This document shows positions 43,715-56,507 of a stretch of 64,000 bases of DNA, in pieces; position 1 is the first letter of the stretch; each line of letters starts with the position of its first letter. The stretch covers positions 2,108,001-2,172,000 of the forward strand of contig NZ_CP082787.1 of NCBI RefSeq assembly GCF_021462285.1, written 5' to 3'. The position numbers and the translations under genes were made by a program. The notes below the pieces were generated by a model that saw only the letters and a program-made list of their open reading frames with translations, did no database searches and was not told where the DNA came from. The DNA is from Serratia entomophila. Its GTDB lineage: Bacteria; Pseudomonadota; Gammaproteobacteria; Enterobacterales; Enterobacteriaceae.

Positions 43715-45010
43715 TTAAGGTTTGTCGCCCTGCAGCAGCGCGGGCGGCGAGGGCAGGTTGGCGTCGGCGCGCAGTTTCCGCACCCGTTCGGCGCTGACGG
43801 TGGCGGCGGCCGGGTTGCCGAACTGGCGGCTGACGTAGTTGCTCAGTTCGGCGATCTGCGCGTCGTTCAGCTCTTCGGCGAACGACGGCATCAGGATCTC
43901 GCCCTGCCGCATGTCGCGATGCACGCCGTTGAGGATCACCGACACCAGATTCTTGCCGTCGGCGGCGCCGGTGCTGCCGTGGTTGAACAGCGCCGGGTAA
44001 GCGTGGAAGCCGCTGCCCTTGCCGGCGCCGTCCATGCCGTGGCAGGTCGCGCAGTTGCCGCTGAACAGCGTGGCGCCGGTTTGCGGATGTTCGCCGCTGC
44101 CGCGCAGCGCAAACACCGCCTGCGAAGGACTGCCCCAGCGGTCGCGCGGCCGGGTTTGCCGCTCATCGGCGATGGCCGGCACGCTGCGCAGATACACCGC
44201 CATCGCCTGCAGATCGGCTTCCGGCAGATACTGCAGGCTGTGCTCTATGGCTTCCGCCATCGGGCCAGAGGCCGAAGCGCGGCCCGGCACATGGCCGGTC
44301 TTCAGGTAGTTGACCAGATCCTGCTGCGACCAGCTGCCGATGCCGGCGTTGCGGTCCGGCGTGATGTTATAGGCGATCCAGCCGCCGAGATCGCCGCCGG
44401 CGAACGCTTTGTCCTGGTCCATGCCCATGGTCAGCGTGCGCGGGGTATGGCAGGTGCCGCAGTGCGCCAGCGCCTCCACCAGGTAGCGGCCCTGGTTCCA
44501 CTGGGCGCTTTGCGTCGCGTCCGGGCGCAGTTCGCCAGGCTCGAAGTTGAACCACTTCCAGAAGCGCATGCCCCAGCGCTGGTTGAACGGGAAGGCGAGA
44601 TCGGTTTGCGGCGTGGCCTGGGCCACCGCCGGCTGCGCCAGCAGGTAGGCCTTGATCGCCAGCACGTCTTCGCGGCTCATTTTGGTGAAGGCGTCGTACG
44701 GCATCGCCGGATACAGCTGCTGGCCGTCTTTGCCTACGCCGTCGCGCACCGAGGCGACAAATTCGTCGTCGCTCCAGCCGCCGATGCCGAACCGTTTATC
44801 GGCGGAGATGTTGGTGCCGTAAATCACGCCGAACGGCGTGCTGACCGGGTAGCCGCCGCCGAACGCCGGGCCGCCGGGCGCGGTGTGGCAGGCGGTGCAG
44901 TCGGCGGCGCGCGCCAGATATTCGCCGCGCTTGATAAGCTCGGCGTCGCTTTGCGCCCACAGTTGGCCGCTGACCAGCAGCGGCAACAGCGCCAGTAAGG
45001 TCTTTTTCAC
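43715..45010 (-). CDS. Triheme cytochrome c subunit of a membrane sugar/aldonate dehydrogenase
   Basis: 431 residues with a GTG start that overlaps the flavoprotein stop by 4 bp (GTGA). Signal peptide MKKTLLALLPLLVSGQLWAQ. Three heme-binding motifs: CTACH (38-42), CGTCH (184-188) and CATCH (320-324). It passes electrons from the flavoprotein to ubiquinone at the periplasmic face of the inner membrane. The longer open frame upstream is only the shadow of the flavoprotein gene. Confidence 0.92.
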   Translation of the reverse strand: MKKTLLALLPLLVSGQLWAQSDAELIKRGEYLARAADCTACHTAPGGPAFGGGYPVSTPFGVIYGTNISADKRFGIGGWSDDEFVASVRDGVGKDGQQLYPAMPYDAFTKMSREDVLAIKAYLLAQPAVAQATPQTDLAFPFNQRWGMRFWKWFNFEPGELRPDATQSAQWNQGRYLVEALAHCGTCHTPRTLTMGMDQDKAFAGGDLGGWIAYNITPDRNAGIGSWSQQDLVNYLKTGHVPGRASASGPMAEAIEHSLQYLPEADLQAMAVYLRSVPAIADERQTRPRDRWGSPSQAVFALRGSGEHPQTGATLFSGNCATCHGMDGAGKGSGFHAYPALFNHGSTGAADGKNLVSVILNGVHRDMRQGEILMPSFAEELNDAQIAELSNYVSRQFGNPAAATVSAERVRKLRADANLPSPPALLQGDKP

Positions 45011-46623
45011 GCCATGCCTCCTTTCAGGCTGTCCAGCACCCGGTCGGCCATGTGCAACGCCAGCGCCACGCCGGTCAGGGTGGAGTTGACGGTGGAAGCG
45101 GAAGGCATGACGCCGGTGCCGGCGATGAACAGGTTCGGGTGATCGTGGCTGCGGCAGTCGCCGTCCACCACCGAGTCGCCGCCATCGGCGCCCATGATCA
45201 TGGTGCCGGTGATATGCTGGTTGTTGTCGTAGACGCCGCGTTTGCTGTAGGCCGCTTCGGTGCCGCCCATCTGTTTGACGATGCGTTGGAAATCGAGCAT
45301 CGACTGGTCGTAGCCGCGGTGCACGTATTCGGGGAATTGGTAATACACCTCCAGCTTGGGAATGCCCCAGGCGTCTTTTTCGGTCTTGCTCAGCTGCACG
45401 CGGTTTTCCGGCTCCGGCAGCATCTCCAGCAGGCACTTCAGCAGCACGTAACGTTCGGCCTGAAACGCCAGCTTGTCGTTCAGCGCCTTGCCGTAATAGC
45501 CCTGGCGGATCAGCCGTTCGGTGAGATAGCGCACCGGCGAGGTATTGGCCACGTCGACCCGCAGCGCCGAGCGTTCGGCACGGAAGGCACCGTCGCGCAG
45601 GTTGTTGATGCTGCCGGGGCGCATCGGCCCGCGGCCGAACCAGACAGGTTCGTCGGCGTAGAACTCCACCGAGCTGCCGGGATGGTCCATCAGGTTGCGG
45701 CCCACCATGCCGGAGCCGTTGGCGATGCCGTTCGGGTAGCGCTCGCTGCTGGACAGCAGCAGGATTTTCGGGCTTTCGATGCCGTTGGCGGTCAGCACGA
45801 AGCGCTTGCCGGTGACCCGGTGACTGGCCTTGTTGCGGTCGAGATAGTGCACCGCCACGATATTGCCCTGGCCGTCGGCCTCGATGCGGTGCACCACCGC
45901 ATTGGCCAGGATGCGCACTCCGGCCGCCAGCGCCTTGCGGGCCGAGATGCCGCCGTGATACTGGGCGTCTATCGGGCACACCGGCATGCAGTTGTTATTG
46001 CCGCAGCAGGCCGGGCGGCCGTCGTAGGGCACGCTGTTGCGCGCCTGCGGGCCAATGCCCACTTCGTAGCCCAGGCCGGCGATGCGCTGTTTCAGGCGTT
46101 CGAAGCCGTAAGGCAACGGAATGCCCGGCAGCGGATACGGGCGCGAACGCGGCGAATCCAGGCTGCTGTCGCCGGAAACGCCCATCTGGTATTCCGCCTC
46201 GCAGTAATAGGGCTCCAGCTGTTCATAGCCGATCGGCCAGTCGCGCCCGACGCCATACAGGGTTTTCATCCGCATGTCGTTCGGCAGCAGACGGAACGCC
46301 TGCCCGGCCCAGTGCCAGGTGGTGCCGCCAACGCCGCGCAGATACTGGGCGCGGTAAGGATCCGGTCCCTTTTGAATCAGATAGTTGTTATCGCTCGGCA
46401 CAAACTTCGGCTGCGGCGCCCAGGGTTCGGGCGGGAAGGGCTCGGTGAAATCCCCTTTGAACGGCGAATTGCGGAACAGCTCGACCGCCTCATCGCGCTT
46501 GATCTCCGGCCCGGATTCCAGCATCAACACCGAGGCGCCGGCCTGCGCCATTTTCAACGCCGCCAGGGAACCGGCGATGCCGGCGCCGATCACCACGATA
46601 TCGGCACTTAATGAATCAGACAT
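45007..46623 (-). CDS. GMC flavoprotein subunit of a sugar/aldonate dehydrogenase
   Basis: 538 residues. FAD fold VVIGAGIAGSLAALKMAQAG (10-29), GMC C-terminus FIAGTGVMPSASTVNSTLTG. Four cysteines at 206, 207, 212 and 216 (ACCGNNNCMPVCPIDAQYHGG) match the Fe-S cluster loop of FAD-dependent glucose, gluconate and fructose dehydrogenases. Exact substrate (gluconate, 2-ketogluconate or a polyol) is not decided by sequence. It starts 8 bp inside the small-subunit gene, with which it forms an operon; it would be exported by the small subunit's Tat signal. Confidence 0.9.
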   Translation of the reverse strand: MSDSLSADIVVIGAGIAGSLAALKMAQAGASVLMLESGPEIKRDEAVELFRNSPFKGDFTEPFPPEPWAPQPKFVPSDNNYLIQKGPDPYRAQYLRGVGGTTWHWAGQAFRLLPNDMRMKTLYGVGRDWPIGYEQLEPYYCEAEYQMGVSGDSSLDSPRSRPYPLPGIPLPYGFERLKQRIAGLGYEVGIGPQARNSVPYDGRPACCGNNNCMPVCPIDAQYHGGISARKALAAGVRILANAVVHRIEADGQGNIVAVHYLDRNKASHRVTGKRFVLTANGIESPKILLLSSSERYPNGIANGSGMVGRNLMDHPGSSVEFYADEPVWFGRGPMRPGSINNLRDGAFRAERSALRVDVANTSPVRYLTERLIRQGYYGKALNDKLAFQAERYVLLKCLLEMLPEPENRVQLSKTEKDAWGIPKLEVYYQFPEYVHRGYDQSMLDFQRIVKQMGGTEAAYSKRGVYDNNQHITGTMIMGADGGDSVVDGDCRSHDHPNLFIAGTGVMPSASTVNSTLTGVALALHMADRVLDSLKGGMA

Positions 46624-47137
46624 GGGCGTTCTCCTTGCGGGGCGGTTGCGTCCAGAAATCGGGCTCGCCGGGGCAGTAGCTCGGCGGCGTCAGAGAGCCG
46701 CGCACCAGCTGATAACTGACGATGTTCTCAAAGGCGATGCAGATCCGTTTGGTCGGGGCGCCGACCACGCCGAGATACCAGCCGCTCATCAGCGCCTCAT
46801 ACAGGTCGGCGAGGCGTTGCGGCTGCCGTTCAATCAGCGCATGCAAGGCTTCGCCGCGCAGATCGGCATGCTGAGCCAGCAGCTCGCCAAGCAGGGTTAT
46901 TTGATGTTCAAGCTGTGGAAACAGCGGCCGTAACGCGGCGTGCAGCCGCTGCGCCAGCCGCGGGTCCGGCAGCGGTATGCCGGTCAGCAGGCGGGAAATG
47001 GCCAGGAAATTTTCCGGCATGGCGGCCGGTTGCGGCAGGGCGAAAGCGACGCGGCCCAGCAGGCTCTGGCCGACGGCGCCAGCCATCAACAGGCCAGCCG
47101 AACCGAGCACCAGCCGGCGGCGAGAAAGTGCGATCAT
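46616..47137 (-). CDS. Small subunit of the sugar dehydrogenase, Tat-exported
   Basis: 173 residues starting MIALSRRRLVLGSAGLLMAG, a twin-arginine-type signal (SRRRLVLGS). The mature part (PENFLAISRLLTGIPLPDPRLAQRLHAAL and CIAFENIVSYQLVRGSLTPPSYCPGEPDFW) fits the FAD-sorbitol-dehydrogenase small-subunit family, which folds and exports the flavoprotein. First of three overlapping genes of the complex. Confidence 0.87.
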   Translation of the reverse strand: MIALSRRRLVLGSAGLLMAGAVGQSLLGRVAFALPQPAAMPENFLAISRLLTGIPLPDPRLAQRLHAALRPLFPQLEHQITLLGELLAQHADLRGEALHALIERQPQRLADLYEALMSGWYLGVVGAPTKRICIAFENIVSYQLVRGSLTPPSYCPGEPDFWTQPPRKENAHV

Positions 47138-47174
47138 CAGGGGCGGCTCCTTGAACTGAGTAGTAGGTCCGTGG

Positions 47175-47639
47175 TTATTTCAGCGCGCCGGCCGCGGTGG
47201 CGGACGCCTGGTTGTCAGTCTCCTGCTTCGGCGTGCTGACGCCGACTGCGCCGACCACTTCACCGTTCAGCGTCAGCGGGTAACCGCCGCCCAGCGCGAC
47301 CGCGTGCGGAATGCTCAACACGGTGGTTTCGCCGCCCTGCAGGCGCTGCATAAATTTCAGCGAAGGGGTGCGGTACAGCGCCGACGTGCGCGCTTTGCCG
47401 ATCGACGCGTCGACGCAGCCGGGGGGCGCGCCATCGAAGCGCTGGAAGGCCAGCAGGCTGCCGGCGCTATCGACTACCGCCGCACAGCCGGTGCTGTTTT
47501 GCGCTTTCAGGCTGGATTGCACGCTGGCGATCGCCAGGTTGGCCTGGGCGTTGTCCAACTGCGGGTGCAGGGCGGCTGCGGCATGGCCGCTGGCCAGCGC
47601 CAGCAAGGCTGCGGCGCTCAGAGGGATGAGATGTTTCAT
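47175..47639 (-). CDS. Exported HbpS/GlcG-like heme-binding family protein
   Basis: 154 residues with signal peptide MKHLIPLSAAALLALASGHA. The mature domain is of the GlcG/HbpS type: LKAQNSTGCAAVVDSAGSLLAFQRFDGAPPGCVDASIGKARTSALY, then GGYPLTLNGEVVGAVGVS. HbpS of Streptomyces binds heme and senses redox stress. It precedes the dehydrogenase genes by 37 bp on the same strand, so probably the same operon. Confidence 0.82.
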   Translation of the reverse strand: MKHLIPLSAAALLALASGHAAAALHPQLDNAQANLAIASVQSSLKAQNSTGCAAVVDSAGSLLAFQRFDGAPPGCVDASIGKARTSALYRTPSLKFMQRLQGGETTVLSIPHAVALGGGYPLTLNGEVVGAVGVSTPKQETDNQASATAAGALK

Positions 47640-47783: not shown

Positions 47784-48671
47784 TTAATCACCGGGTGGGT
47801 AAATTTTGTTCAGCGCCGTCTGCCAAACGAAAGGCGTCAGTTGCGAATAGGCGAGATCTTGCGCCCGCATGGCGTCAACCAGCCCCTGCTGCGTTTCGAC
47901 GGTAGCCAGGCTCTGGTGGGGTTCTATCCCGACGTCGCGCAGCGTCTGCACCACCTCACGCATCTCTTCGGCCCGCCGCTTGCCGTGTTCCGCCACCCGG
48001 CCGATCAGGTAGTGGGGAAGCTGCTCGTCCCAGCCGAGCGACGGGAAACTGGCGTGCAGCGACGCCAGCACCGGCTGATCCACGCCGTAGCGCTGGGCGG
48101 CGCGCAGACACTCGGTAGTCAGCGCCTCCAGCCCTTTGATCATCACGCTGCGGCACATTTTGATCGCCGAAGCTTCACCGACGCTGGCGCTGTAGACCCG
48201 GCTGTTGAACCCCAACGCATTAAGCCGCGCGCCGATTTCCGCCGCATCGGCACCGCCCAGCAGCAGCGGAGTTTTGAGGCGTTGCGGCGGCACCGGCGCC
48301 ATCACCGCCACGTCGATATAGCCTGCGCCGCCGGCGGTCACCGCCTCCGCGGCGGCGCGTTTGGTATTGGGTGCGACGGAGTTGAGATCCAGCCAGGTTT
48401 GCCCCGCCCGCAGCAGCGGCGCGCACTGCTGCGCCACCGCCAGCGCGTTGGCGGCGGTGACGGCGGAAAACACCAGGTCGGCGCCTGCCAGCGCCTGCGG
48501 GAGCGAAGAGGCCAGCACGGCGCCGCAGGCCGCCGCTTTCTGCGCCATGGCAAGCGAAAGTTGGCTGTCATAGGCGCAAACGGCGAGGTGCTGCGCCCGC
48601 AGCTCCTGCGCCAGAATGCCGCCCACTTCGCCGAAGCCGATCAGCGCCACTGAAGGTAGAGTCGGGTTCAT
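47784..48671 (-). CDS. 6PGDH-like NAD(P)-dependent dehydrogenase in the gallate operon
   Basis: 295 residues, start MNPTLPSVALIGFGEVGGIL, a Rossmann GxGxxG variant. A central DLVFSAVTAANALAVAQQC and DVAVMAPVPPQRLKTPLLLGG resemble the beta-hydroxyacid dehydrogenase superfamily, and the C-terminal domain (IKMCRSVMIKGLEALTTECLRAAQRYGV) is of the DUF1932 type. Last gene of galB-galC-galD-this gene. It may reduce or oxidise a keto or hydroxy diacid made by the pathway; the function is not known. Confidence 0.8.
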   Translation of the reverse strand: MNPTLPSVALIGFGEVGGILAQELRAQHLAVCAYDSQLSLAMAQKAAACGAVLASSLPQALAGADLVFSAVTAANALAVAQQCAPLLRAGQTWLDLNSVAPNTKRAAAEAVTAGGAGYIDVAVMAPVPPQRLKTPLLLGGADAAEIGARLNALGFNSRVYSASVGEASAIKMCRSVMIKGLEALTTECLRAAQRYGVDQPVLASLHASFPSLGWDEQLPHYLIGRVAEHGKRRAEEMREVVQTLRDVGIEPHQSLATVETQQGLVDAMRAQDLAYSQLTPFVWQTALNKIYPPGD

Positions 48672-48684
48672 AGATTCTCCTGGA

Positions 48685-49776
48685 TTATTCTGGCCATACC
48701 GCGCCGGGTATGCAGACCTGGCCGGCAAATATCAGCCGCGCGCTGCGCAGCAGCCCGGCACCCCGCAGCGAATCGGCGCCTTCGCGCGCCGGATCGCGCT
48801 GCAGCAGCACGCCGAACTCGCCGCTGGGATGCTCGACGCTCAGGCGCAGCTCGGCGGCGTCGCCAACGCGGGCCAGCCCCTGCGCCACGCTGCCGGGGAT
48901 CAGGCAGGCGGTGGCGACGCTGACCGCACCGAGCACGCCAATCGAGGCATGGCAGCGGTGCGGGATGAAGGTACGGCTGCTGATCGCGCCGCCGTGGCGC
49001 GCCTCGGCGATCAGGGTCATTTTCGGTACCGTGCGTTGGCTGACGTCGCCCAGGTTCATTAGCGGCCCGGCCTGCAGGCGAATGCTTTCCAGCCGCGCCT
49101 TCAGTTCCGCATCCGCATCCAACTGCTCGCGGCTTTCATAGCCGCTGCGGCCCAGATCCGCCGCGCGCACCAGCACCACCGGCATGCCGTTGTCGATACA
49201 GGTCACGGCGACGCCGTCAAAACTGTTTTGCGGGCGGCCGGTCGGCAGCAGGGCGCCGCAGCTGGAGCCGGCGATGTCGTTGAAGGTCAGCGCGATTTCC
49301 GCCGCGCGGCCGGGAACGCCGTCTATCGCCAGCTCGCCGTCGTACCGCACTTCACCGGCGGGCGTGGCGATGCGCGCCAGCGCAGTCTGGCCGGTGTTCT
49401 GCATGAAGATGCGCACTTCGGTCACTTCGTCGCCGGCGCTGACCAGCCCGCGCTCAATGGCGAAGGGGCCGACCGCCGCCAGAATGTTGCCGCAGTTCTG
49501 CCCGTAGTCGACCTGCGGACGATCGACGCCGACCTGAGCGAACAGGTAGTCGACGTCGGCGTCCGGGCGGGCGGAACGCTTGACTATCGCTACCTTACTG
49601 GTCAGCGGATCGGCGCCGCCGAGGCCGTCGATTTGCCGCAGATCCGGCGAACCCATCACCGCCAGCAGCACGGCGTCACGTTGCGCGGGCTCGGCGGGCA
49701 GATCGTCTGCGAGGAAGAAGGCGCCTTTTGACGTGCCGCCGCGCATCAGCAGGCAAGGGATTCGGCGTTGGCGCAT
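48685..49776 (-). CDS. galD: 4-oxalomesaconate tautomerase GalD
   Basis: 363-residue PrpF-family isomerase converting the enol/keto forms of 4-oxalomesaconate after gallate ring opening. Begins MRQRRIPCLLMRGGTSKGAFFLADDLP; VDYGQNCGNILAAVGPFAIERG and HRCHASIGVLGAVSVATACLIPGS carry the two catalytic Cys/Lys regions of the family. The gene lies 1 bp past galC and 13 bp before the dehydrogenase gene. Confidence 0.92.
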   Translation of the reverse strand: MRQRRIPCLLMRGGTSKGAFFLADDLPAEPAQRDAVLLAVMGSPDLRQIDGLGGADPLTSKVAIVKRSARPDADVDYLFAQVGVDRPQVDYGQNCGNILAAVGPFAIERGLVSAGDEVTEVRIFMQNTGQTALARIATPAGEVRYDGELAIDGVPGRAAEIALTFNDIAGSSCGALLPTGRPQNSFDGVAVTCIDNGMPVVLVRAADLGRSGYESREQLDADAELKARLESIRLQAGPLMNLGDVSQRTVPKMTLIAEARHGGAISSRTFIPHRCHASIGVLGAVSVATACLIPGSVAQGLARVGDAAELRLSVEHPSGEFGVLLQRDPAREGADSLRGAGLLRSARLIFAGQVCIPGAVWPE

Positions 49777-49777
49777 A

Positions 49778-50491
49778 TCAATCCTCCAGCAGGTCGGCTG
49801 AGTCGTAATATTTCAGGCCTTTTTCCGCCAGCCGCGGCCGCATCCGGTAGATATCCAGCCCCAGTTCACCGTTGGCCATGCGCAGCCGCTTGCTCTCTTC
49901 CAATTCCGCGCGTTGGCGGCTGGCCGCCAGCACGCCCTCGGCTTCCGGCTGGCGCACCACCACCACGCCGTCGTCATCGGCGACGATCGCATCGCCGGGG
50001 TAGATAAGCTGCCCGGCGCACACCAGCGGCACGTTGACCGAGCCGAGCGTCTCCTTCACCGTGCCCTGGGCGTAAACCGCCCGTGACCACACCGGGAAGC
50101 CCATTTCGCGCAGCGTGCGGGTATCGCGCACGCCGAGGTCGGCCACCAGGCCGCGCACGCCGCGCGCTTTGAGCGAGGTGGCCAGCAGGTCGCCGAAGTA
50201 GCCGTCGCCACAGGGGGAGGTCGGCGCGACCACCAGAATATCGCCCGGCCGGCACTGTTCCACCGCCACGTGGAACATCCAGTTATCGCCCGGCGCCACC
50301 AGCACCGTCACCGCGCTGCCGGCGATGGCCAGATCTTGCTGAATCGGGCGAATGGCCGGATCCAGCAGCCCTTTGCGGCCCTGCGCTTCATGTACCGTCG
50401 CCACGCCGAAAGCCGCCAGCCCATCAAGGGTGCTGCCGCCGGCGCGCGGAATATTGCGGATAACCACGCCTTTTTTGCCGATGATGCTCAT
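49778..50491 (-). CDS. galC: 4-carboxy-4-hydroxy-2-oxoadipate aldolase GalC
   Basis: 237-residue class II aldolase (RraA-like fold) that splits 4-carboxy-4-hydroxy-2-oxoadipate into pyruvate and oxaloacetate. Matches [64 protein letters not shown] and [14 protein letters not shown] with the metal/pyruvate-binding residues. The start overlaps the galB stop by 4 bp. An upstream-extended frame is a shadow of galB and is rejected. Confidence 0.93.
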
Positions 50492-51228
50492 GCCAGCTCC
50501 CCCGTAACCCGAGGGAAGATGCTCTGATAGCCTTCGCCGTAGATGATGTTTTTGCTGCTGGTGATGCCGACGTTGCGCTTGGCCTGCACGCCACGCTGTT
50601 GGGCGACGCGGGTGTAGTATTCCCACAGGTGCTCCTGGCCGGCCATGCATTGGATGGCCTGGTACTTTTTGTCCCACACCTCGGTGATGTCCAGCAGCAC
50701 GTCCGGTTTCCACTCGCACTGTTCCGGCTGGTGCGGTTCGAACAGGTAGACCGGCGGCGCGCCGACGATCGGCTCACCCGGCCGGTAGCCTTCGGCCTGG
50801 GCGATGATGCGCGCCTCCTGCGTCAGGTGGGTGGCCAGCGGATGGTCGTAGTTATAGGGATCTTTCAGTGAATGCGTCAGCACGAAGTGCGGCTGCACCC
50901 GGCGGAACACGTCCGCCAGGCGGAACAGCGCCTCTTTGTCGGCGCGCAGCGGGTAGTCGCCCATGTCGAAAAATTCGATGCTGGCGCCGAGGATCTCGGC
51001 GGCGGCCTGCGCCTCCTCGCGGCGTGCAGCCTTCACCCGTTGTTCGGTCATTTCGCCCTTGCGCCACAGTTTGGCGGATTCGCCGCGTTCGCCAAACGAC
51101 AGGCAGACCACGTGCACCTGATAGCCGAGCCGGCCGTGCAGCGCGATAGCGCCGCCGGCGCGCCAGACAAAGTCGGCGGAATGGGCGCTGACCACCAGGG
51201 CGGTTTTGTTCGGGGTTGCATCACTCAT
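50488..51228 (-). CDS. galB: 4-oxalomesaconate hydratase GalB
   Basis: 246-residue PIG-L/LmbE-fold zinc enzyme hydrating 4-oxalomesaconate to 4-carboxy-4-hydroxy-2-oxoadipate. The family's [15 protein letters not shown] motif (usually AHPDD) and [22 protein letters not shown] are present. Start [10 protein letters not shown]. First gene of the leftward galBCD operon, divergent from the LysR regulator with 129 bp between starts. Confidence 0.92.
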
Positions 51229-51357
51229 TTTCGGGTTCCTTCGGTCTCGGGGATTCACTCCATGCTGGCAGCTCCGGCCGGCGGCGGATAATTCATTTGA
51301 TTGCAGCAGGTATGCGTTTTATTTATATTGCCAGCAGGCCGAAGCGGGGAGGATAGA

Positions 51358-52575
51358 ATGGAATATGACGAAAGTGCGCTGACAAACCTGATGCAAATCA
51401 GGGCATTCAGCCAGGTGGTGGCGCAGGGCAGCGTATCGCGCGCCGCCGCCGAGCTATTCAGAACTCAGTCGGCCATCACCCGTTCGATCCGCGATCTGGA
51501 GCTGCGGCTGGCGGTGCCGCTGTTCGAGCGCCATGCCAGCGGCATGCTGTTGACCGACTTCGGCAAGTGCGTGCTGCCGCGCGCCCGGCGGGCGATAGCC
51601 GAGCTGCATCAGATCCCGGCGCTGCTGCACCGCCTGCAGGGCAAAGGGACGGCGCGCGGCGACGCCGAGCCGCTGTACCTGTTCAACGTGCGGCGGCTGC
51701 AGATTTTTGTCTGCCTGTGCGAAACCCGCCATATGCAAACCGTCGCCACGCTGCTCGGCCTGAGCCAGCCGGCGATCAGCGCCGCGCTGAAGGTGCTGGA
51801 AAACGGCGCCGGCGTGGCGCTGCTGGAACGCACGCCGCACGGCATGGTGCCGTCGCTGGCCGGGCGCGAGATCGAACCCAACGTGCGCCGCGCGCTGAAT
51901 GAGCTGCAGCACATTCCCGCCGACATCGCCGCGCGTCGCGGGGTGCTGGAAGGGCGGGTGCGGGTCGGCGCGCTGCCGCTGGGCCGCACGCGGCTTCTGC
52001 CGCAGGCCATTGTGCAGCTGACGTCGCGCTACCCCGGCGTCAGCGTGGTCACCAACGAAAGCGCGTTTGACGCGCTGGCCAGCGAGCTGCGTTCCGGCGA
52101 TATCGACTTCATCTTCGGTGCGCTGCGGGCCAGCGACTACGCCGCCGATGTCTACAACGAGACGCTGTTCACCGAGGCGATGGTGCTGCTGGCGCGGCGC
52201 GGTCATCCGCTGGCGCAGCCGGGCCTGCAGCCAGGGCAGCTGAAGGAGGCGCGCTGGGTATTGCCGCGTTCGGCCACGCCGGCGCGGCGTTTGCTGGATG
52301 ATTGTTTTCTGGCGATGGAGATACCGGTGGCCAACCCGGTGGTGGAAACCGGCGATCTGGCGCTGGTGCGCGGGCTGCTGCTGAATTCCGACATGCTGGC
52401 TGCGGTCTCCGCGCATCAGCTGGAGCATGAGTTGGCCTCCGGCGAACTGGTGCGGCTGCCGCTGGCGCTGCCCGATACCGAGCGCGCCATCGGGCTGACC
52501 TGCCGCACCGGCAGCCTGCACTCACCGGCGGCGCAGGCGCTGATCGACTGTCTGCGCCAGGTGTGCGCCGCTTAG
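51358..52575 (+). CDS. galR: LysR-family gallate regulator with two helix-turn-helix domains
   Basis: 405 residues, about 100 more than a normal LysR protein. Two winged-helix domains: residues 11-70 ([20 protein letters not shown], then [19 protein letters not shown]) and 110-170 ([20 protein letters not shown], then [19 protein letters not shown]). An effector domain follows from about 200 ([32 protein letters not shown]). Placed between the two gal operons, so probably the activator of both. Start MEYDESAL follows GGGAGGA. The symbol is inferred by context with Pseudomonas galR. Confidence 0.8.
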
Positions 52576-53000
52576 AGCTGCGCAGCCTGCATCAGCGCGT
52601 AGCGGTAGCCCTGAATGCCGAAACCGCAGATCACGCCGTGGGCCACGTCGGACAGATAGGAATGGTGGCGAAACGGCTCCCGCTTGTGCACGTTGGTGAT
52701 ATGCACTTCGAACAGCGGCAGCGCCACGGCTGTGACGGCGTCACGTATCGCCACCGAGGTGTGGGTCCAGGCCGCCGGGTTGATCACCAACGCCTGCGCC
52801 TGGCCGCGGGTTTGCTGGATCCAGTCAATCATTTCCCCCTCGTGGTTGGTCTGGCGAAACTCGAGGTTAACCTCCAGCTCGGCGGCGGTGTCGCGGCACA
52901 GCCGTTCGATGGTCGCCAGCGTATTATGGCCATAGGTTTCCGGTTCGCGGGTGCCCAGCAGATTGAGGTTGGGGCCGTTGAGCACGTAAATGGTCTTCAT
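52572..53000 (-). CDS. aroQ: Type II 3-dehydroquinate dehydratase AroQ
   Basis: 142-residue dodecameric dehydroquinase. Catalytic elements: [17 protein letters not shown] with the Arg and Tyr, [17 protein letters not shown], and [16 protein letters not shown] plus [18 protein letters not shown]. Start MKTIYVLN. Placed as the last gene of the operon with the permease, gallate dioxygenase and amidohydrolase, it suggests quinate or dehydroquinate funnelling through 3-dehydroshikimate rather than aromatic amino-acid biosynthesis. Overlaps the galR stop by 4 bp. Confidence 0.92.
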
Positions 53001-53014
53001 GGTTTTTCTCCGGG

Positions 53015-53845
53015 TTAATCGGCAAAGCCAAACAGCCTCTGCGGCGTTTGCCATAAAATCTGTCGGCGGGTGGGGGCGTCAGGGAACAGCTGCTCCGCCA
53101 GCATCAGCAGCGTGCCCATGTCCATCCGTTCGGTGGCGCGCAGGAATGGCCAGTCCGACCCCCACATGCATTTTTCACCGCCGTAGGCGCTCAGCAGCGC
53201 CTGCAGGTAAGGCTGGCCGTCGCTGAACGGATAGCGCTGACGGGAAAACTTCGCCAGCCCCGACAGCTTGACGTAGGTGTGTTCACGCTGCGCGAGCGAC
53301 AGCAACGCCTGAAACGCCGGCTGTTGCAGGCCGGCGCGCACGTCCGGCCGCCCCGAGTGGTCGAACAGCAGCCGGGTGCGGCTGCGCGCCAGCAGCGGCA
53401 TCAGCGCCGGCAGTTGGTCGTCCTGCACCTGAATTTGCGCGTACATGCCCAGCTCCGCCAAACGGCCCATCAGCCCGTCCAGCCGCAGAAAAGGTTCGAC
53501 GCCGAGCATCGCCACGTTGAGCGCGATGCCAACCACCCCCTGCGCCTGCAGGCTCGCCAGCGTCTGGCTGTCGGCGTCGCGCGGCACCACCGCGATGCCC
53601 TTGTGGCGGCCTTCGCCTTCTGCCAGCGCCGCCAGCAGATAGCGGTTGTCGGTGTTGTAGGCCGAGGTGGGGCCGACGATCAGCGAATGGCGGATGCCGT
53701 AGGCCTGCATCACCGCGCGGTAATGTTCGAGCGTAGCCAGCTCGTGGCCCGCCGGGTGATAGCCGCTGTCCGCCGCGTAGGGAAAGCGCTGCGGATCGAA
53801 GATGTGATGGTGACAGTCGATTTTAGGCTGATCGAAAATGCTCAT
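53015..53845 (-). CDS. Amidohydrolase of the 2-pyrone-4,6-dicarboxylate hydrolase family
   Basis: 276-residue TIM-barrel amidohydrolase_2 protein. Metal-site motif [17 protein letters not shown], then [14 protein letters not shown] and [11 protein letters not shown], as in LigI/PDC hydrolase. LigI converts 2-pyrone-4,6-dicarboxylate to oxalomesaconate. PDC arises spontaneously from the gallate and protocatechuate cleavage routes, so the enzyme would return it to the pathway. The start overlaps the galA stop by 4 bp. Assignment to PDC is by context. Confidence 0.78.
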
Positions 53846-55104
53846 TTCGCCGCTTTCCCCGCTACCGAATACAGCACCTGTTGATTGCGCGTTTGCTGGA
53901 ACTCCTCCAGCGTCTGGCCGCGCATCGCCGAGTAGATATGCAGATTGGAGACGCCGACTACCGCACCGAGTTTTTCCAGCAGGAAGAAGCTGACGCCGTA
54001 GTGGATCAGCCCGCGCCAGTCGAGGTCGCGCAGCAGCCGCTGTTCCTCGGCGCTGAGTTGCGCTTCGTCGAACAGCGCCTGTTGCGCCGTATTGAAGCGC
54101 TCGCGCCAGGCTGGCTGAATCAGCCGGTGCAGGAAGCGATTGATGCGGATCGCCTTCAGGCTGCGGGCGTGGGTGAACGGATAGGTGCCCGGCAGTTGCT
54201 CCACGCCCGCCAGCTGCAGGTTGATTTTGTCGCGCTGGCGCTGGTGCACGTCAACCGGCGCTTCGCGCGCCTGGTTCTCGAGGATCAGCGTGGCGATGCC
54301 GGTCATCGACGGCAGGTAATAGGCCTGATGGAGTTTTTCGACGTTGGCCGACAGCGCGCCGCGCATAATCAGCCACATGATCACCTCGGCGCCCTCCAGC
54401 CCGCCCAGGGTGGCGTATTCCGCCAGGGTAATTTCGGTCAGACGTTCCGGATCGTTGACCAGCATGTCGATAAACTGCGCGTCCCATTCCGGGTTGTTGA
54501 AACCGCAGCGTTCACCGTGCACCTGGTGCGAGACGCCGCCGGTGGCCACCACCGCCACGCGCAGCTCCTCGGGGAAGCTTTCGATCGCCCGGCGCAGCGC
54601 CTGGCCGAGTTTAAAACAGCGGCGGGCGGAGGGAATGGGGAACTGCAGTACGCCGACCTGCAGCGGCACCACCTGCATCGGCCAGCCGTCCTGCCAGGGC
54701 AGCAGGGCGGAAAGCGGCGAAAACAGCCCGTGGTCGAGCGGCTTGTCCTGGAAAAACGACATGTCGAATTCGTCTGCCATCAGGCTGGCGCCGATATGCT
54801 GGGACAGCGCCGCATGGCCCTGAATGGGCGGCAGGTCGCGCGGGCCGCCGCCTTCATCGGCCACCGCATAACTGTCGTCGATGCCCAGCACGAAGGCCGA
54901 ATAGTGATCGAAGAAAAACGAGGTGACGTGGTCGTTGAACACGTACAGCAGCACGTCGGGCCGTTTCTCTTCCAGCCACTGCCGCATCGGCGCGAAGCCG
55001 TCGAAAATCGGCGCCCAGGCGCTCTCGTGCTGCTTGTTGTGGTCCACCGCAAAACCGATGGTCGGGGTGTGAGACACCGCCAGTCCGCCAATGATCTTAG
55101 CCAT
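53842..55104 (-). CDS. galA: Gallate dioxygenase GalA
   Basis: 420-residue extradiol ring-cleavage enzyme, a LigB-type catalytic domain fused to a C-terminal LigA-like domain, the same length as Pseudomonas GalA. N-terminal AKIIGGLAVSHTPTIGFAVD holds the first iron His; LYVFNDHVTSFFFD and VVATGGVSHQVHGERCGFNN hold other active-site residues. The LigA-like part begins near NRFLHRLIQPAWRERF. Cleaves gallate to 4-oxalomesaconate. Confidence 0.92.
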   Translation of the reverse strand: MAKIIGGLAVSHTPTIGFAVDHNKQHESAWAPIFDGFAPMRQWLEEKRPDVLLYVFNDHVTSFFFDHYSAFVLGIDDSYAVADEGGGPRDLPPIQGHAALSQHIGASLMADEFDMSFFQDKPLDHGLFSPLSALLPWQDGWPMQVVPLQVGVLQFPIPSARRCFKLGQALRRAIESFPEELRVAVVATGGVSHQVHGERCGFNNPEWDAQFIDMLVNDPERLTEITLAEYATLGGLEGAEVIMWLIMRGALSANVEKLHQAYYLPSMTGIATLILENQAREAPVDVHQRQRDKINLQLAGVEQLPGTYPFTHARSLKAIRINRFLHRLIQPAWRERFNTAQQALFDEAQLSAEEQRLLRDLDWRGLIHYGVSFFLLEKLGAVVGVSNLHIYSAMRGQTLEEFQQTRNQQVLYSVAGKAAK

Positions 55105-55127
55105 CCTGTACCTCTGTTTGCAAAGAA

Positions 55128-56507
55128 TTACCGGTTGTTCATGGTGCGCGACAGCGCGGGCAAATCGTTGAGCCCGATGCCTTTGACCATTTCCGCCGGA
55201 TGCGCTTTCTGATGATTAATGATAGTGATCGCCGCCAGCAACGCCGGGATCGCCAGAATAATGAAAATGCTGGTGGCGCCGGGGAAGATTCCCAGCAGCA
55301 CGCCGCCCATCGACGAGCTGATGATCGCGCCGCTGCGGCCGATGCCGTGCATCCAGCTGACGCCGGTGGCGCGCATTTCGGTGGGGTAAAACGCCGGGGA
55401 GAACGCCTGCAGGCCGGTTTGCGCGCCGTTGATGCACACGCCGCTGGCGAACACCAGCGCCGCCAGCACCGTCGGGCCAAAGCCCCAGATGCCCTGCGAC
55501 AGCAGGCAGCACATGCCCATCAGGTAGAACAGACCGATCACCCGTTTGGCGACGAAGCGGTCCATCAGCCCGCCGACCATCAGCCCGCCCAGGGTGCCGC
55601 CCAGCTGGAACAGACCGGCGATGATGGCGGCGCGCTCCAGCGAGAAGCCGGCGCCGCGCACGATGGTCGGCAGCCAGCCGTTCAGCAGGTAGATAACGAA
55701 CAACCCCATAAAGTAGGTCAGCCACAGCACCAGCGTGCCTTTGGCGTAGCCGTTGCTGAACAGCTGCAGCACCCGGGCCTTTTTCGGCATCACCGGCGTT
55801 TTCAGCACGAAGGTGGTGCCGGCGCTGAACACCCCGCCGGCACGGCGCAGGATCTGGGCGATTTTGTCCTTGTGGTGGTTGCGTACCACCATGTACAGCG
55901 TCGATTCCGGCAGGATCCAGATCAGCAGCGGCAGCATCAGCAGCGGCATGATGCCGCCGAGGAACAGTACCGCCTTCCAGCCGTAGTGCGGCAGCATGCC
56001 GGCGGCGATAAACCCGCCGGCGCCGGAGCCGATGTTGAAGCCGCTGTACATCAGGGTGATCATCAACCCGCGGCGGCGTTCCGGCATGTATTCCGACACC
56101 AGCGTCACGCAGTTGGGCATCACTGCGCCCAGCCCCAGGCCGGTAAGAAAGCGCAGCAGCGCCATTTCCAGCGGGGTGCGGGCGAAGGTGCTGAGCAGGC
56201 TGAACAGCGCGAAGCACAGGACCGACAGCAGCAGCACTTTTTTGCGGCCGAAACGGTCGGAGTAGGGGCCGGCGATCAGCGCGCCCAACGCCACGCCGAA
56301 CATGGCGGCGCCGAGGATCGGGCCCATTTCGGCGCGCGAAATGCCCCAGTCTTCGATCAGCGCAGGCGCAATAAAACCCATCACCGCGGCGTCATATCCA
56401 TCGAACATGATGATGATGAAGCACAGCAGCAGCACCAGCCACTGATAACCGGAGATGGGGCGGGAATCGATCCACGCTTTGACGTCGACAATGTTGTGGT
56501 TGCTCAT
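55128..56507 (-). CDS. Aromatic acid:H+ symporter (AAHS family), probable gallate permease
   Basis: 459-residue MFS protein of the aromatic acid:H+ symporter group (PcaK/GalT type). Signatures: IIIMFDGYDAAVMGFIAPALIEDWGIS (the AAHS D-G-x-D motif), GPYSDRFGRKKVLLLSVL, RFLTGLGLGAVMPNCVTLVSEYMP. First gene of the operon with gallate dioxygenase, 23 bp upstream of it, so gallate or a related acid is the likely substrate. Confidence 0.88.
   Translation of the reverse strand: MSNHNIVDVKAWIDSRPISGYQWLVLLLCFIIIMFDGYDAAVMGFIAPALIEDWGISRAEMGPILGAAMFGVALGALIAGPYSDRFGRKKVLLLSVLCFALFSLLSTFARTPLEMALLRFLTGLGLGAVMPNCVTLVSEYMPERRRGLMITLMYSGFNIGSGAGGFIAAGMLPHYGWKAVLFLGGIMPLLMLPLLIWILPESTLYMVVRNHHKDKIAQILRRAGGVFSAGTTFVLKTPVMPKKARVLQLFSNGYAKGTLVLWLTYFMGLFVIYLLNGWLPTIVRGAGFSLERAAIIAGLFQLGGTLGGLMVGGLMDRFVAKRVIGLFYLMGMCCLLSQGIWGFGPTVLAALVFASGVCINGAQTGLQAFSPAFYPTEMRATGVSWMHGIGRSGAIISSSMGGVLLGIFPGATSIFIILAIPALLAAITIINHQKAHPAEMVKGIGLNDLPALSRTMNNR

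Follow-up and report, generated by a model that had tools for sequence, protein, structure and literature searches.

A gallate operon of Serratia entomophila with an added amidohydrolase and a second dehydroquinase: a possible link to quinate and shikimate use

Here we describe a gallate gene cluster of Serratia entomophila in which the gallate dioxygenase gene galA is followed by genes for a COG3618-type amidohydrolase (amH) and for a second type II 3-dehydroquinate dehydratase (dehydroquinase; aroQ2). The cluster resides in a stretch of 64,000 nucleotides (positions 2,108,001 to 2,172,000 of the 5.15-Mb Serratia chromosome NZ_CP082787.1), referred to below as the window. Its gallate core is of the Pseudomonas putida type and already known. 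The gene order joining this core with amH and aroQ2 recurs in several enterobacterial genera, AmH and its relatives lack two of the three presumed substrate arginines of LigI, the hydrolase of 2-pyrone-4,6-dicarboxylate (PDC), and AroQ2 is an additional dehydroquinase of its genome. We propose that a quinate/shikimate module has been added here to a gallate operon, and that AmH would hydrolyse an ester or lactone of a quinate- or shikimate-type acid; in our judgement the chances that this is correct are about even.

The original prediction had recognized here a permease, a dioxygenase, a hydratase, an aldolase and a tautomerase of gallate breakdown, with a type II dehydroquinase and a LigI-like amidohydrolase in the dioxygenase operon. 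All of the genes it named proved to be open reading frames in the places it gave them (Table 1), the hydratase and the permease being assigned by family and position. Four genes, galT, galA, amH and aroQ2, are consecutive on the minus strand; galR lies on the opposite strand, and galB, galC, galD and a DUF1932 gene come next. Both additional genes follow galA closely: galA and amH share 4 bases (ATGA), and the ATG of aroQ2 (position 53000) is placed after a gap of 14 bases, with a ribosome-binding-like GGAGA upstream. An overlap of 4 bases also joins galB and galC.

Among 80 amH loci (the best of at least 568 encoded relatives), ten enterobacterial ones carry the order galT-galA-amH-aroQ, namely those of Serratia quinivorans, Pantoea, Winslowiella, Rouxiella, two Erwinia metagenome-assembled genomes and four Rahnella; in the Rouxiella stretch examined (L009), this run is not continued by the other gal genes. 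The closest AmH in a protein search was that of S. ficaria (95%). Five of 30 Serratia genomes contain galA, and the same five contain amH with a second dehydroquinase gene beside it, while galA, amH and a second dehydroquinase are all absent from the other 25. Since the order recurs in six genera and the genes co-occur in the same five Serratia genomes, it is not a product of chance. An order-level survey of 247 genomes revealed galA in 4 and amH in 3, E. coli genomes gave no galA match, and a plasmid search with the entire operon found no record covering 80% of it.

In keeping with the original prediction, the combination is missing from the gallate clusters that we compared. The system of P. 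putida KT2440 (galTAP, galR, galBCD) comprises the same enzymes, with the LysR gene divergent from galB, but the window adds amH, aroQ2 and the DUF1932 gene, and its cluster is devoid of the porin gene galP; the accessible portions of PMC12314914 and PMC9942251 name only galTAP and galBCD as the gal genes of KT2440. The Klebsiella aerogenes plasmid pC9_001 and another enterobacterial genome (G140) have galT, galA, galR, galBCD and the DUF1932 gene in a similar layout, without amH and aroQ. In Burkholderia multivorans the gal cluster also lacks the pair and encodes an unrelated amidohydrolase of 341 residues with no BLAST match to AmH. Because gal clusters without the pair exist, we regard amH-aroQ2 as an accessory module. 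Searches of the open-licence literature on dehydroquinate dehydratases in gallate-dioxygenase operons, on amidohydrolases of gal clusters or of quinate catabolism, on galloylquinate hydrolases and on gallate dioxygenase in enterobacteria brought up no description of this module.

AroQ2 scores 205.8 bits against TIGR01088 (cut-off 169.85) and, in an alignment with the housekeeping copy and relatives from the PDB, keeps all canonical type II residues, which we take to include the lid Arg, the Tyr, the Asn and the His of the TH motif. The possibility that aroQ2 is simply the only dehydroquinase gene of its genome, misplaced, is ruled out, as another copy is present elsewhere; indeed, 30 of 30 Serratia genomes have a type II dehydroquinase gene away from amH. 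AroQ2 shares 55-58% identity with the housekeeping enzyme. In a tree, the operon AroQ copies group together and with Pseudomonas relatives, with the housekeeping type represented by a single row on a long branch; this grouping and the level of identity speak weakly against a recent duplication of the housekeeping gene. AroQ2 resembles the type II dehydroquinases that serve quinate catabolism in being complete and encoded beside catabolic genes, but its gene is part of a gallate operon. We presume a catabolic role for AroQ2.

The fold of AmH matches that of LigI (the PDC hydrolase of Sphingobium/Sphingomonas), with approximately 28% identity. The catalytic residues of the COG3618 barrel are conserved, H12 and H14 in 80 of 81 sequences (one row is a fragment) and H163 and D231 in all 81. 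The residues that we take to be the substrate-binding arginines of LigI (Arg124, Arg130 and Arg217) are a different matter: the first position holds Ala in 78 of the 81 sequences and Thr in the other 3, the second is never Arg, and the third is Lys in 75 or else Gln; two of the three arginines count as absent across the whole clade. The best NCBIfam match of AmH, 4-sulfomuconolactone hydrolase (NF042924), reaches 120.7 bits, far under the cut-off of 500, and its sequence and fold neighbours are of the lactonase type, the COG3618 relatives including, as a weak match, L-fucono-1,5-lactonase. One Pseudomonas branch of the amH tree (built by a quick method) appears to be exported: a twin-arginine-translocation-like signal, SRRxLL, is present in 16 of 16 homologs of at least 330 residues among the 120 listed. 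At three of the five loci of this branch (L014-L018) amH adjoins galT, with galA 3 kb away, while two have no gal gene in the examined stretch. An exported AmH encoded beside a gallate transporter fits an external ester or lactone and is a poor fit to an intracellular by-product such as PDC. We read AmH as a probable hydrolase of a quinate- or shikimate-linked ester or lactone. In Pseudomonas laurylsulfativorans the exported amH is split over two successive frames (L018:9809-10834), reflecting a frameshift or an assembly error.

The genomic neighbourhood of the amH relatives points in the same direction. With aroE and aroQ profiles built from genes of these same loci, an aroE- or aroQ-type gene was counted within 6 kb of amH at 28 of the 80 loci, 18 of these outside the enterobacterial gal operon; galA is found within this distance at 15. 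After exclusion of 11 gal loci, the density of aroE/aroQ genes around amH at the remaining 69, counted with the same profiles, was 75 per Mb in the first 1.5 kb and dropped to 26, 22 and (at 4.5-6 kb) 5.6 per Mb in the next three bins; the three bins beyond 6 kb gave 0, 18 and 0 per Mb. Shikimate-dehydrogenase-type genes number 126 in approximately 178 Mb from 24 of these genomes, a background of 0.7 per Mb. Genes of the quinate/shikimate type are thus found near amH relatives at more than the expected frequency. The AroE-type neighbours, considered as possible proof of shikimate chemistry, form three clusters, of which two have representatives over the AroE cut-offs and the third does not. 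A TIM-barrel neighbour (c10), considered as a tentative candidate for a dehydroshikimate dehydratase, is present at 19 of the 80 loci; its best curated match is the QuiC model, but a weak one (48.9 bits, cut-off 1200), and its profile matches 2g0w, QuiC1 (5hmq) and IolI with similar strength. By our tally, 51 of the 80 loci have a nearby gal gene, aroE, aroQ, c10 or a quinate-type pyrroloquinoline quinone (PQQ) dehydrogenase gene. P. capeferrum, two other Pseudomonas and members of Paraburkholderia and Burkholderia encode near amH a PQQ dehydrogenase with 61-75% identity to the second such enzyme of the window genome. Two Paraburkholderia records (one of P. largidicola) bring together amH, aroQ and a PQQ dehydrogenase gene within 9 kb, and one Paraburkholderia PQQ dehydrogenase encoded beside amH and aroQ shares 62% identity with that of the window genome. 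In two Thioclava records the aroQ and amH genes have 8 bases in common and are followed by a major facilitator superfamily (MFS) gene, with no gallate genes. Of 11 plasmid records with amH, nine were examined; four of the nine carry aroQ and four a PQQ dehydrogenase gene (the ninth by annotation only). Further amH loci have unrelated genes next to amH, among them those for a sulfate permease, a DNA polymerase and PhaC. The Rhodoferax and Caballeronia loci with both aroQ and aroE (L061, L063, L049) also contain HMG-CoA-lyase-like, CoA-transferase III or thioesterase genes, which could serve a non-aromatic breakdown of quinate.

A link with quinate- or dehydroquinate-derived carbon, the intake of which had been suggested from the gene content, is therefore plausible in view of the canonical added dehydroquinase and of the neighbours of the amH relatives. 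The accompanying statement that quinate dehydrogenase and dehydroshikimate dehydratase are missing is true of the cluster; outside it the genome encodes two members of the glucose/quinate/shikimate family of PQQ dehydrogenases, one of them a candidate quinate-type enzyme (C1:2470893-2473451; 39% identical to the first). There is one AroE; a second shikimate dehydrogenase was not found. As distinct from known quinate pathways, the genome yielded no QuiC-type dehydratase in a search limited to PF01261 proteins. Seven of these pass the cut-off, namely Nfo, 2-oxo-tetronate isomerase, IolE and four that have no QuiC match even at E 0.01. Protocatechuate 3,4-dioxygenase (PcaGH), with which quinate breakdown usually ends, was likewise not found, the sole PF00775 protein being a catechol 1,2-dioxygenase; no family search was made for a 4,5-dioxygenase. 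Given that neither PcaGH nor a QuiC-type dehydratase was found, dehydroquinate carbon may plausibly exit via gallate. Plant AroE-family enzymes are described, in the accessible parts of the literature, as making gallate from 3-dehydroshikimate well, and the accessible portion of PMC10992115 reports that E. coli AroE does so inefficiently. With such precedents a route via gallate, though hypothetical, is chemically plausible.

The proposed mechanism can be outlined as follows. GalT would import gallate, GalA would open the ring, and GalD, GalB and GalC would lead to pyruvate and oxaloacetate under the control of the GalR-type regulator. The amH-aroQ2 module, for use of quinate or shikimate, would have been gained between galA and galR. 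A periplasmic quinate-type PQQ dehydrogenase, encoded at a separate locus, could feed in 3-dehydroquinate, which AroQ2 would convert into 3-dehydroshikimate; oxidation of the latter to gallate would allow it to join the pathway. AmH would split an ester or lactone with a quinate- or shikimate-type ring, e.g. galloyl-quinate, so that one operon might handle both halves. Tannin-rich plants commonly contain gallate esters of quinate and shikimate, and galloyl-quinate, although a guess, would explain the gallate and quinate contexts together. Two plant-acid pathways would then be joined in one operon, and an uncharacterised amidohydrolase clade, whose members at present carry PDC or sulfomuconolactone hydrolase as a default label, would receive a testable role. 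A bolder version is that some plant-associated enterobacteria degrade quinate or dehydroquinate via gallate and not protocatechuate: AmH would cleave an ester or lactone of the galloyl-quinate type to free the ring acid, AroQ2 would make 3-dehydroshikimate, a dehydrogenase (a side activity of AroE, the DUF1932 protein or the GMC complex) would oxidise it to gallate, and GalA would open the ring. We consider this version unlikely; if true, such a catabolic bacterial route would also be relevant to gallate production.

Several observations weigh against the proposed quinate/shikimate module. We know of no amidohydrolase that acts on galloyl-quinate. At 29 of the 80 loci amH has no gal, aroE, aroQ, c10 or PQQ partner, and clusters of a sugar type (short-chain dehydrogenase/reductase (SDR), MFS, TIM barrel, lactonase) would suit part of its contexts. 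The AroE-type neighbours may use other substrates, one of their PDB matches being a 5-ketofructose reductase. P. chlororaphis (L013) has galT-galA-amH-galR-galBCD without aroQ, and another locus (L007) a galT-like gene and amH without galA or aroQ. The TH histidine is lost in the amH-linked AroQ of P. largidicola (L117), Variovorax (L065) and one Caballeronia (L049), and these AroQ-like proteins of Burkholderiales may have changed their function. Finally, the quinate-type PQQ gene is found at an identity of at least 90% in 15 of 30 Serratia genomes, five with galA and ten without.

Among the alternatives, AmH might be a housekeeping repair enzyme that opens the lactone of a sugar-acid intermediate or of one formed late in the gallate pathway, the quinate-type neighbours reflecting general catabolic clustering. 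The lactonases among its weakly matching COG3618 relatives and a frequent context of LysR, amH, galactonate-type MFS, SDR and TIM-barrel genes suit this explanation, but the aroE/aroQ density near amH is far over background and the pocket residues examined are mostly identical in different genomic contexts, so that we find it doubtful. It is rather improbable that AmH is a lyase, i.e. a new type of dehydratase acting after AroQ on 3-dehydroshikimate or a related ketone, comparable to LigJ-type hydratases. The amidohydrolase superfamily does contain hydratases, LigJ among them, and at several aroQ-amH loci (Thioclava, Paraburkholderia) no gene is annotated or matched as a dehydroshikimate dehydratase; against this, P. 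chlororaphis and other Pseudomonas carry amH beside gal genes without aroQ, AmH would be redundant at the loci with the weakly QuiC-matching TIM barrel, and its relatives in sequence and fold are lactonase-like. That AmH is instead a LigI-type hydrolase rescuing PDC from gallate ring cleavage, with aroQ2 a separate passenger, as the original prediction held in part, is hardly probable in view of the missing arginines, the exported Pseudomonas branch, the many relatives at loci without ring-cleavage dioxygenase genes in the examined stretch and, according to the accessible part of the source, the direct formation of 4-oxalomesaconate by GalA, which leaves PDC off the path.

The proteins of the gallate core were assigned with Pfam families and with NCBIfam models against their curated cut-offs. 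GalA (842.6 bits with NF009904, cut-off 412), GalD (550 bits with NF033377, cut-off 440) and GalC (388.5 bits with NF006731, cut-off 179; 345.4 with TIGR02798, cut-off 304.5) are confirmed by these models. GalB is a PIG-L protein by PF02585, with no NCBIfam equivalog at the cut-off; its counterpart in the Klebsiella aerogenes cluster is annotated as 4-oxalmesaconate hydratase galB. GalT scores below both cut-offs, that of PcaK (the best match, 472 bits; cut-off 770) and that of the aromatic acid/H+ symporter model (402.7 bits; cut-off 418.55). Family and position suggest that GalB is the 4-oxalomesaconate hydratase and GalT the gallate permease.

In 11 of 12 sequences aligned, the heptanucleotide AACGCAT is found at the corresponding place between galR and galB, and no match to it was seen upstream of the window's galT. 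According to the accessible portion of PMC9942251, the same seven bases form part of the predicted GalR site in the galR-galB gap of P. putida, where 4-oxalomesaconate is the effector of GalR. The cluster is predicted to be under GalR-type control, with AACGCAT as a putative site. In the GalR-type LysR protein, HTH_1 is matched twice, and the first approximately 110 residues lie ahead of the PcaQ-model match; the gal regulators of relatives are of similar length.

Table 1. Genes and sites of the gal cluster and of its downstream flank (window positions)
Feature	Position	Strand	Basis and remarks
galT, MFS aromatic acid transporter	55128..56507	-	PF07690; heads the galT-galA-amH-aroQ2 run
galA, gallate dioxygenase, LigB and LigA domains	53842..55104	-	NF009904
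amH, COG3618-type amidohydrolase	53015..53845	-	PF04909; nearest solved structures 2ffi, 4i6k, LigI 4d8l
aroQ2, second type II 3-dehydroquinate dehydratase	52572..53000	-	PF01220, TIGR01088
galR-type LysR regulator	51358..52575	+	PF00126 (2 stretches), PF03466; divergent from galB
galR-galB intergenic region with AACGCAT in a conserved block	51261..51357 (bounds approximate)		alignment of relatives
galB, PIG-L-type 4-oxalomesaconate hydratase (by position)	50488..51228	-	PF02585
galC, 4-carboxy-4-hydroxy-2-oxoadipate aldolase	49778..50491	-	NF006731, TIGR02798
galD, 4-oxalomesaconate tautomerase	48685..49776	-	NF033377
DUF1932 NAD-binding dehydrogenase	47784..48671	-	PF09130, PF03446
HbpS/GlcG-like gene downstream of the cluster	47175..47639	-	PF03928
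three-subunit membrane dehydrogenase	43718..47137	-	small subunit 46616-47137, GMC 45007-46623, cytochrome c 43718-45010

The DUF1932 dehydrogenase is kept in gal clusters without amH and aroQ (51% identity in G140 and 57% in Klebsiella aerogenes), and such a gene also lies near galBCD in Rhizobium johnstonii; it is likely to have a role in gallate use. Further downstream, the region 43718-47639 encodes a membrane dehydrogenase and an HbpS/GlcG-like protein, which stay with the gal cluster in several Erwiniaceae and Serratia loci. The dehydrogenase consists of an FAD-SLDH small subunit (PF12318), a GMC protein (PF05199/PF00732) and a cytochrome c (PF00034), and adjoins the gal cluster at five loci (L003-L006 and L008) and in part at L101; the HbpS/GlcG-like gene is found beside the cluster at 4 of the 80 loci and at L101.

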